The notes below the pieces were generated by a model. The model saw nothing but the letters and a program-made list of their open reading frames with translations, ran no database searches and was not told where the DNA came from. Position numbers and translations under genes: made by a program. This document shows positions 25,599 through 49,478 of a stretch of DNA of 64,000 nt, piece after piece. How positions within the stretch are numbered: position 1 is the stretch's first letter; every line of letters starts with the position of its first letter. The stretch is from Actinomycetota bacterium. Its GTDB lineage: Bacteria; Actinomycetota; Actinomycetes; Streptosporangiales; Streptosporangiaceae. The stretch covers positions 1-64,000 of the forward strand of contig DAHVAR010000052.1 in the NCBI GenBank assembly GCA_027314515.1, written 5' to 3'.

Positions 25599-25604
25599 TA
25601 TCAT
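25599..25604 (+). promoter_or_regulatory. -10 element in front of the tRNA gene
   Basis: TATCAT lies six bases before the first base of the tRNA, in an unusually AT-rich stretch (25450-25600) of a 302-base gap with no gene. No clear -35 is seen. Confidence 0.4.
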
Positions 25605-25610
25605 CGCAAT

Positions 25611-25684
25611 GCCCCCGTAGCCCAAGGGAAGAGGCGGTCCCCCTAAAAGGGTCCCCAGTGTCGGTTCGACTCCGACCGGGGGTA
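25611..25684 (+). tRNA. Short (class I) tRNA with UAA anticodon, identity uncertain
   Basis: The cloverleaf can be folded by hand. The 7-bp acceptor stem is 25611-25617 with 25677-25683; U8 and A9 are present. The D stem is GCC/GGC around a loop with GG; the T stem is GTCGG/CCGAC with loop TTCGACT. The discriminator base is A, and the 3' CCA is not fully encoded (CCG follows). The anticodon stem (GTCCC/GGGTC) has one T-T mismatch and the loop CCTAAAA gives anticodon UAA at 34-36, with C instead of U at 33. UAA reads the leucine codon UUA, but the variable region is only about 5-6 bases, not the long arm of a leucine tRNA. It may be a rare or degenerate tRNA. Confidence 0.75.
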
Positions 25685-25849
25685 CCGCTTAGCTGCGGCT
25701 AAAGGCGCGCGTGCCTGGAATCGACCTCAGTTTCCTATGCTGACGCGCCATTCAACCGACGCTAATTGCCTGCTGAGATCGCCGGGATTAGGCCGGGCGA
25801 GCAACGGCAGATTACGCGCGGATTCTGCGCCCGGCGCGTTTGTGGTCAA

Positions 25850-26260
25850 TCACCCGCTCACGTCCGGCCCGGCCCGGTCGAGCGTAATCCTGACGATCAG
25901 GCGTTTTTCTCTGCGCATGGCGTCGCGGTAGTCATCCCAGTCCGGGTGCTCGCCCGAGATCCGCCGGTAGTAGTCCTCGAGGAGCGGCAACGCGTCCGGC
26001 AGGCGGATGAGCTCGGCATTGCCCTCGGCCTGGACCCACTCGCCGAAGAAGCCGTCGTTGAGCACGCACAGCGACGCTCTCGGGTCTCTCGCCAGGTTCT
26101 TCGCCTTGACTGCCGTTTCCCTGGTGCTGATCAGCACGCGGCCGCCATCGTCCACCGCCGCGACCACCGGGGAAAGCTGCGGGCGGCCGTCTGACCTGGT
26201 GGTAGCCAGAACTGCCCGCGGATGACCGGACAGGAACGCGGTGGCGCGCCTGATGTCCAC
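25850..26260 (-). CDS. PPOX-class (F420- or flavin-dependent) oxidoreductase
   Basis: A 136-residue split-barrel protein of the pyridoxamine 5'-phosphate oxidase superfamily. It opens with AFLSGHPRAVLATTRSDGRPQLSPV, then GRVLISTRETAVKAKNLARDP, LCVLNDGFFGEWVQAEGNAEL and DWDDYRDAMRREKRLIVRIT, the standard order in actinobacterial PPOX-class enzymes. Many of these use cofactor F420, but the cofactor cannot be decided from sequence. It is followed at a gap of 7 bases by no partner in the same direction except the DUF4287 gene upstream, with which it may be co-transcribed. Confidence 0.85.
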   Translation of the reverse strand: MDIRRATAFLSGHPRAVLATTRSDGRPQLSPVVAAVDDGGRVLISTRETAVKAKNLARDPRASLCVLNDGFFGEWVQAEGNAELIRLPDALPLLEDYYRRISGEHPDWDDYRDAMRREKRLIVRITLDRAGPDVSG

Positions 26261-26267
26261 CGCGCGG

Positions 26268-26495
26268 TCAGGCGCGGTTGAGCCTGGTGCGGCGCTGGAG
26301 TTCGTACTCGTGCACGATCGCGCTGGCGTACCCGTGCGACAGCCCGTGCTCGTCAGACAGCCAGTTAGCGCGCTCGCTGCGTCTCAGGAACGCCGGACCC
26401 GATTCAAGACGGCTGAACCACTCTCGGAGTTGCAGACCGGTCACGGCCGGAATGCGGGCGATCAGGTTCTGATGCATCTCCGGAGAGTGGGTCAT
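26268..26495 (-). CDS. DUF4287 domain protein
   Basis: A 75-residue soluble protein matching DUF4287: it begins HQNLIARIPAVTGLQLREWF, then FLRRSERANWLSDEHGLSHGYASAIVHEY. The GLSHGYA motif is a family landmark. These proteins occur alone or attached to DUF5655 and have no proven role. I chose the ATG at 26495 because the extra 49 residues of the longest frame show no family similarity. It ends 8 bases before the PPOX gene start. Confidence 0.8.
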   Translation of the reverse strand: MTHSPEMHQNLIARIPAVTGLQLREWFSRLESGPAFLRRSERANWLSDEHGLSHGYASAIVHEYELQRRTRLNRA

Positions 26496-26675
26496 GGACA
26501 ATGCGCACCTCCAGGTCGTCTCCCGGGCGAGGGAGTCCCTGGAGTCGAGCGTGCACCACTCGGCGCGCTGTGACAACCCCCAGATGAAACCGTTCCGTAA
26601 TGCCCTGTTTGGCGCAACGCCGCCTGCCGGGCACAGCGTCACAGGCCCGTATCCGGCTTCGTTAGCTAACCGGGG

Positions 26676-27893
26676 CTAGCTGAGCCGCTCGAAGATCATC
26701 GCCATGCCCTGTCCGCCGCCTACGCACATCGTCTCCAGCCCGATCGACTTGTCGTGGAACTGCAGGCTGTTCAGCAGGGTGGAGGTGATCCGCGCGCCGG
26801 TCATGCCGAACGGGTGGCCGACCGCGATGGCGCCGCCGTTGACGTTGAGCTTGTCGATGTCGATGCCCAGGTCTTTGCAGGACGGAATCACCTGGGCGGC
26901 AAACGCCTCGTTGATCTCCACCAGGTCGACGTCGTCGATCGTCATGTTCGCCCGGCGGAGGGCCTGGCGTGACGCCTCGACCGGGCCGAGGCCCATGATC
27001 TCCGGCGAGAGCGCGGTGACTCCGGTCGACACGATCCTGGCCAGCGGGGTGATGCCCAGCTCGGCAGCCCTGGTGTCGCTCATCACGATCACGGCGGCGG
27101 CACCGTCGTTGAGCGGGCAGCAGTTGCCGGCCGTCACCGTCCCGTCCGGCCGGAACACCGGCTGAAGCTGCGAGACCTTCTCCAGCGTGGTGCCGGGCCG
27201 GGGCCCGTCATCGGCGGCGACGACAGTTCCGTCGGGCAGCGTGACCGGGGTGATGTCCCGCTGCCAGAAGCCGTTGGCAAGGGCCTTCTCGGCCAGGTTC
27301 TGCGACCGGACGCCGAACTCGTCCTGCGCCTCGCGGCTAATGCCGCGCAGCTCGGCAACGTTCTCGGCGGTCTGGCCCATGGCGATGTAGATATCGGGCA
27401 CATTGCCGTCTTCGCGTGGATCGTGCCAGCTGAAGCCGCCCTTGGCCATCTCCCCGGCGGTGGCCTCGGCGGCCGCGAAGACCGGGTTCTTGGTGTCCGG
27501 CGCTCCGTCGCTGCTGCCCTTCCCGAACCGGCTGACGGTCTCCACGCCAGCCGAGATATAGATGTCGCCCTCGCCCGCCTTGATCGCGTGGAAGGCCATC
27601 CGGGTGCTCTGCAGCGAGGACGAGCAGTACCGGGTGATTGTGGTCCCCGGCAGCGTGTCGTAGCCGAGCATGACCGCGACCACCCGCGCCATGTTGTAGC
27701 CCTGCTCCCCGCCGGGCAGCCCGCAGCCCAGGATCAGGTCGCTGATCTGCGCGGGATCTACCTGCGGCACCTTGGCCAGCGCGGCCGTCACCATCGCCGC
27801 GGTGAGGTCGTCGGGACGGATGGTGGTCAGCGATCCCTTGAACGCCCGGCCGATGGGCGAGCGGGCGGTGGCGACGACGACTGCCTCGGGCAT
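26676..27893 (-). CDS. Acetyl-CoA C-acyltransferase (thiolase)
   Basis: A 405-residue thiolase. The nucleophilic Cys is in RYCSSSLQSTRMAF, the His in NGGAIAVGHPFGMTGAR and the second Cys in MCVGGGQGMAMIFERL. NEAFAAQV is also conserved. It cleaves 3-oxoacyl-CoA with CoA or condenses acetyl-CoA units. The sequence looks like the fatty-acid-type FadA/acetyl-CoA acetyltransferase group. No pcaF is found in the pca cluster 4 kb away, so this enzyme could supply that step, but this is not shown by the sequence. Confidence 0.93.
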   Translation of the reverse strand: MPEAVVVATARSPIGRAFKGSLTTIRPDDLTAAMVTAALAKVPQVDPAQISDLILGCGLPGGEQGYNMARVVAVMLGYDTLPGTTITRYCSSSLQSTRMAFHAIKAGEGDIYISAGVETVSRFGKGSSDGAPDTKNPVFAAAEATAGEMAKGGFSWHDPREDGNVPDIYIAMGQTAENVAELRGISREAQDEFGVRSQNLAEKALANGFWQRDITPVTLPDGTVVAADDGPRPGTTLEKVSQLQPVFRPDGTVTAGNCCPLNDGAAAVIVMSDTRAAELGITPLARIVSTGVTALSPEIMGLGPVEASRQALRRANMTIDDVDLVEINEAFAAQVIPSCKDLGIDIDKLNVNGGAIAVGHPFGMTGARITSTLLNSLQFHDKSIGLETMCVGGGQGMAMIFERLS

Positions 27894-48788: not shown

Positions 48789-49478
48789 TTACGGCTGCCA
48801 GACCATCAGGACGAGTATTACCAGCCAGATCAGGTTCACCACGCCGCCCATGGCGGCGATCCGGCCGCGCTCGACCGAGGCGACGTGCGCAGCCACAGCG
48901 GTATTGCCGCCTGGCTGGCCCGGACCTAGCTGGGCGGGACCCGGCTGGCCCGTGCCCGGCTGGCCTGTGCCTGGTGGTTCGGGCCCGGCCGGTCCGGTGG
49001 CGTCGGCATCACCTCGGGCATCCGCCTCGTCAGGAACGGCTGCCTGTAGCGGCGGCCCCGCGGGTGCCAGGGCCCTGATGGCGCGGCGCTGATCGCGGAT
49101 GACGAGCACGAGCAGCACGATCGCGACGACGAACAGCGTCATGGAGACCGTCAGCCACGGGCGCGCGAAGTCGTGCTTCAGCTCGCCAAGCACGATGCCG
49201 AAGACCAGCACCAGCAGCGAGGCGGCAGTGAAGATCACGGTAATCCGGCTGAGGTAGCGCACGACCGCCACGTCGCGCTGGCGGATGTACCGCGGCGTCG
49301 AGGAGATCGCCAGCGCGACCGGGCCGATCGTGAAGATGGCGAATCCGATGTGCAGCCAGAGCACGAGCCGGTCGGAGAACGACATGGAGTCGATCGTAGG
49401 CCCACCGGCCGGGCGCGCGCCCACCGACGCCGACTCTGCCCCGCCTGTCTCACCTTCGACCGTCGCATGCATGCTCAC
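48789..49478 (-). CDS. DUF2269-like integral membrane protein
   Basis: A 229-residue protein with four hydrophobic helices, three in the N-terminal half (LWLHIGFAIFTIGPVALAI, ITVIFTAASLLVLVFGIVLG, LTVSMTLFVVAIVLLVLVI) and one at the C-terminus (GGVVNLIWLVILVLMVW). Between the third and fourth lies a Gly/Pro/Gln linker with GTGQPGPAQLGPGQPG repeats. The layout, with a His in the first helix, fits the DUF2269 family of unknown role. A shorter start at 49385 (MSFSDRLVLW) is possible because the first 31 residues are low complexity. Confidence 0.6.
   Translation of the reverse strand: MSMHATVEGETGGAESASVGARPAGGPTIDSMSFSDRLVLWLHIGFAIFTIGPVALAISSTPRYIRQRDVAVVRYLSRITVIFTAASLLVLVFGIVLGELKHDFARPWLTVSMTLFVVAIVLLVLVIRDQRRAIRALAPAGPPLQAAVPDEADARGDADATGPAGPEPPGTGQPGTGQPGPAQLGPGQPGGNTAVAAHVASVERGRIAAMGGVVNLIWLVILVLMVWQP

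Follow-up and report, generated by a model that had tools for sequence, protein, structure and literature searches.

A compact tRNALeu(UAA) gene with C33 in the Streptosporangiales, probably a working reader of UUA

The tRNA gene and its neighbors

The window, that is, the whole stretch of 64,000 nucleotides that was analyzed, carries on its forward strand at 25611-25684 a 74-nt tRNA gene that does not encode the CCA end and that ARAGORN called as tRNA-Leu(taa) at 25611-25686. The first-pass annotation had described a class-I-sized tRNA with a UAA anticodon, a C at position 33 and a U-U mismatch in the anticodon stem, and each of these features was confirmed by ARAGORN, by the sequence and by the fold. 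The cloverleaf consists of an acceptor stem of 7 bp, a D-stem of 3 bp, an anticodon stem of 5 positions with U28·U42 inside it and a T-stem of 5 bp. In the lowest-energy fold, the acceptor and T stems are formed, as is the anticodon stem with its 7-nt loop CCUAAAA. According to sequence and alignment, the D-arm at 25620-25635, GCCCAAGGGAAGAGGC, is of the leucine type defined by the published determinants (PMC9976931), with a 3-bp stem, A14, A15, G18G19 and an A20a-like A. The anticodon arm at 25637-25653 reads GUCCC-CCUAAAA-GGGUC, with C33 at 25643, UAA at 25644-25646 and U28·U42 at 25638 and 25652, and it is followed by the variable loop CCCAGU at 25654-25659, whose last base (25659) aligns as U48, the partner of A15. 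The gene ends in the discriminator A73 (25684). Thus, the molecule has C33 where the tRNA family (RF00005) has U33, and a 6-nt variable loop where a class II tRNALeu has a long variable arm.

A whole-genome search with RF00005 gave the window tRNA 38.8 bits, above the gathering score of 29 for the tRNA family. This is the covariance-model support that the first-pass annotation had asked for, although a cmscan of the window itself did not report a tRNA at 25611-25684, which is presumably a filter or clan effect. The folding energy of the tRNA alone was unexceptional (z -0.93), and therefore the case for a real tRNA rests on comparison. An alternative fold with a slipped anticodon stem and a 5-nt loop was ruled out, since orthologs with a U30-A40 pair are unable to form it, and a match to tRNA-Sec stayed at chance level (18 bits).

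Upstream of the gene lies a putative -10 promoter element, the hexamer TATCAT at 25599-25604 of the same strand, whose 3' end is 6 bases before the tRNA; most orthologs from Streptosporangiales, those with C33 and those with U33 alike, have TATGAT or TATCAT in the same position. On the other side of the tRNA, two conserved neighbors are encoded on the reverse strand, a PNPOx-family gene at 25850-26260 (PF01243), with a homolog at the U33 locus of relative G020, and a thiolase gene at 26676-27893 (PF00108/PF02803), whose homologs are found at the locus in G020, G029 and G031. Near the tRNA a TTA triplet occurs in a single ORF, at 26268-26642, and it was not counted as a codon since it lies upstream of the likely start of a DUF4287 gene. 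At 48920-48998 of the window, ARAGORN also called a tRNA-Thr(cgt) that is probably false, as it has no RF00005 match and a normal Thr(cgt) tRNA is present on contig C185 of the same genome.

Orthologs, distribution and the change at position 33

Homologs of the window tRNA were present in 44 of the 60 relatives searched, and it shares with this group the D-arm GYCCAA..GGnAGAGRC, the UAA anticodon, the short variable loop and the conserved locus. Genomes with C33 (G029 and G031) and genomes with U33 (G020 and G030) have common flanking genes, the PNPOx-family protein and the thiolase on one side and ppx/enolase-side genes on the other, which indicates that these tRNAs are orthologous and occupy the same chromosomal site, and that base 33 changed in place. 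Over 27 aligned sequences, 99.6% of the stem cells are paired (99.3-100% per helix), and 9 pairs, distributed over three of the four helices, changed on both sides, a result that none of 500 shuffles reached. The anticodon stem takes part in this covariation, with G-U, A-U, G-C and U-A at 28-42, G-C and A-U at 27-43, and C-G and U-A at 30-40; the only one of the 27 sequences in which 28-42 is unpaired is the window copy. U48 is present in 26 of the 27.

We searched for the compact tRNA with a pattern that required the leucine D-arm and, behind it, the UAA loop, and because this pattern was matched exactly the counts are lower bounds. Matches were obtained in 245 of 249 Streptosporangiales genomes, belonging to 55 of 57 genera, and in 82 of the 398 genomes of a sample of the phylum, with carriers that include Mycobacterium, Nocardia, Rhodococcus, Gordonia, Corynebacterium, Arthrobacter, Microbacterium, Bifidobacterium and Amycolatopsis, among others; scattered matches were also found in other phyla and in phages. 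A compact tRNALeu(UAA) is, hence, the rule in Streptosporangiales and common in actinobacteria, and the premise of the first-pass annotation that a UUA reader should have a long variable arm does not hold. Our search of the literature, among open-access papers, did not find this compact tRNA group or its C33 described.

Some observations on individual genomes may be added. The compact UAA tRNA was absent from the pattern search in genus g17 (G024, G630 and G653), and in G024 neither this search nor 20 stretches of the genome contained any UAA tRNA, although a compact tRNALeu(CAA) is present, so that G024 may be without any UUA reader. tRNALeu(UAG) is likewise class-I-sized in the window's genome (contig C77, 119-191), in G029 and in G024, and in G005 a compact tRNALeu(CAA) gene with an unusual D-arm is present in two identical copies.

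U33 is responsible for the U-turn in the anticodon loop and is regarded as near-universal in elongator tRNAs, C33 being very rare among them. Among the 150 matches listed from the order, which were tallied by eye, C33 was found in about 70, from some 22 genera that include Nocardiopsis and, with Actinomadura mexicana, Actinomadura; the remainder have U33, as in Nonomuraea, Streptosporangium, Actinomadura fibrosa and Spirillospora. In the sample of the phylum, C33 occurred in none of the matching genomes except the window's, and actinobacteria outside the order have U33. That C33 is peculiar to this tRNA was evident in G029, where 49 of the 50 distinct tRNAs have U33 and the sole exception is the C33 ortholog. 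In an rpoB tree the sampled U33 family members formed one clade (99/95) nested among the C33 genomes, and at least two changes at position 33 are needed; nevertheless, the backbone is weak and the long-branch genome G037 is placed unsurely, and either a gain or a reversion at position 33 fits this backbone. Further predicted tRNAs with C33 in place of U33 lie on contigs of Chloroflexota, Cylindrospermum and Myxococcota, in stretches rich in tRNA genes.

Leucine identity and the reading of UUA

The E. coli LeuRS recognizes A73, A14, A15-U48, G18G19 and A20a, but neither the anticodon nor the variable arm, which is dispensable for this enzyme, and tRNAs without a variable arm are still charged with leucine (PMC9976931). 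All of these determinants are present in the window tRNA (A73, A14, A15-U48, G18G19 and a D-loop A before the 3' D-stem), and they are kept across the ortholog group with isolated exceptions. We infer from them that the tRNA is charged with leucine.

ARAGORN, run on the RF00005 matches, assigned to the window's genome class II leucine tRNAs with CAA, GAG and CAG anticodons, a compact UAG tRNA and two compact UAA tRNAs. A normal long-armed (bldA-like) UAA tRNA, the search for which had been proposed by the first-pass annotation, was found neither in this genome, a 280-contig draft that is 97.9% complete and for which the result is therefore provisional, nor in the full tRNA set of the closed relative G029. 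The latter comprises 57 tRNAs, the leucine ones having CAA, CAG, GAG and UAG anticodons besides the C33 UAA ortholog (46.1 bits with RF00005), and this compact C33 tRNA is the sole UUA reader of G029.

The rarity of UUA, which had been expected at the outset, was borne out by counts from sampled genome stretches with a simple GC3-based gene caller, with 12 TTA in 64,976 codons in the window's genome and 10 in 47,329 in G029. The few UUA codons fall within genes. At the UUA position of a Ser/Thr kinase of G029, three other genomes have Leu, and Leu was the aligned residue in 5 of the 7 comparisons made for UUA positions in C33 genomes, a small set.

Taken together, these results suggest, with a probability of about 80%, that the product of the gene is a functional compact leucine tRNA, which reads UUA and in which C33 is tolerated. 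Transcribed from its own putative promoter, the tRNA would be charged by LeuRS through A73, A14, A15-U48 and D/T-loop contacts, which in the E. coli enzyme are all independent of a long variable arm, and would then decode UUA. In one large Streptosporangiales group a C replaces the U before the anticodon, and the weaker U-turn to be expected from it would be tolerated since these genomes hardly use UUA, which may be a slow codon in them.

A slow UUA could also be what selection has kept. According to this explanation, C33 would be an adaptive brake that limits the expression of the few genes with UUA, a structural counterpart of bldA control. The stability of C33 over about 22 genera and its presence in the only UUA reader of G029 agree with such a role, as does a pooled TTA rate in C33 genomes below that of U33 genomes (22 in 180,392 versus 34 in 135,176 codons; Fisher p 0.0097). 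However, the difference was not significant genome by genome (Mann-Whitney p 0.32, 8 versus 7 genomes), and the genomes are not independent; an effect that looked strong in five genomes was gone as a significant one over fifteen. We consider the brake unlikely, and a little less likely still the fuller version in which a large Streptosporangiales clade reads UUA only via a C33 elongator kept as a brake, a U33 tRNA having been added in the window's genus.

The window copy, the second UAA tRNA and known relatives

The first-pass annotation had also considered a decayed tRNA and a second reader of UUA. A second UAA tRNA does exist, at 31473-31547 of contig C233 of the window's genome, but it is compact too and not long-armed. 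It has U33, the mismatches C27·C43 and C31·A39 and a weak fold, and no -10-like box was found at the usual position. Among the relatives searched, only the sister species G006 also has this second tRNA, and U28·U42 was likewise seen only in G006 and the window's genome, the window tRNA being identical in both. The coincidence of mismatch and second tRNA in the same two genomes, maybe as one event, is a hint, not a proof, that U28·U42 could reflect relaxed constraint. With a mismatched stem and a further UAA tRNA in its genome, this particular copy could be losing its function, even if the family as a whole is functional.

Such a copy would be a decaying pseudogene, losing its function after the C233 tRNA took over UUA, and its RF00005 score is low in comparison with the 63.1 bits of a U33 ortholog. 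Nevertheless, its sequence is the same in two species, the -10-like box and all other stems are intact, and the presumed successor has worse stems and lacks a positioned -10 box. C33 itself is common to many genera with covarying stems and is thus not a sign of decay, so that only U28·U42 points toward a pseudogene. Decay of the window copy appears improbable, and under the preferred reading of a working tRNA that tolerates C33, the U·U mismatch gained by the C33 copy in the two genomes with a second, U33 tRNA would be consistent with relaxed constraint. A differently charged UUA reader (ambiguous decoding), as initially suggested, or an amino-acyl donor outside translation, which the rarity of C33 in elongators, its expected disadvantage on the ribosome and the near absence of UUA would favor, is very improbable, since the leucine determinants are intact, the same locus holds U33 orthologs, the neighbors that C33 and U33 genomes have in common are metabolic or unrelated genes, among which no transferase-like partner was noticed, and G029 has UUA codons in genes and no other tRNA to read them.

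The closest known system is bldA of Streptomyces, also a tRNALeu(UAA) with leucine determinants that is the sole UUA reader of a high-GC actinomycete. The bldA tRNA has U33 and a long variable arm, whereas the window-type tRNA has C33 and a short loop. In the phylum sample, a genus that appears to be Streptomyces-like (g48) had no match to the compact pattern. According to a review, the developmental role of UUA possibly does not extend beyond Streptomycineae (PMC4255298). Compact tRNALeu of class I size with UAA, UAG or CAA anticodons, mostly with the same D-arm type, were also found in phages (Streptomyces phages Karimac and Alone3, Synechococcus phage S-CREM1 and Sinorhizobium phage Phosso) and tRNA arrays, and a mycobacterial tRNA cluster holds a short-loop tRNALeu(TAG) (PMC6582537). 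These belong to mobile or phage sets and have U33, whereas the gene in the window lies on the chromosome in conserved synteny and is inherited vertically. The tRNALeu(UUR) of animal mitochondria also reads UUA and lacks a long variable arm, with A73 and A14 being important (PMC9976931). It differs in its mitochondrial origin and degenerate structure. We know of no C33 rule for this tRNA. The eukaryotic cytosolic initiator tRNA naturally has C33, as does the window tRNA, but it is not an elongator and its sequence is unrelated.

Within a tRNA group that is widespread and apparently functional, the noteworthy part is thus C33 in a lineage-wide UUA reader, the sole one in the closed genome G029. 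A sense-codon tRNA of this kind offers in culturable genera such as Nocardiopsis and Actinomadura a direct test of the need for U33 in decoding. Moreover, much of Actinomycetota has a UUA isoacceptor that lacks the long variable arm by which tRNALeu is often recognized, which bears on annotation and on the extension of the bldA model to other actinomycetes.

Elsewhere in the window's genome, a 3' half resembling that of tRNATyr (GTAAAACCGTCGGCTCAGCCTACGTTGGTTCGAACC) occurs in many copies on contigs C31, C108, C195, C267 and C275, perhaps as remnants left by integrating elements.
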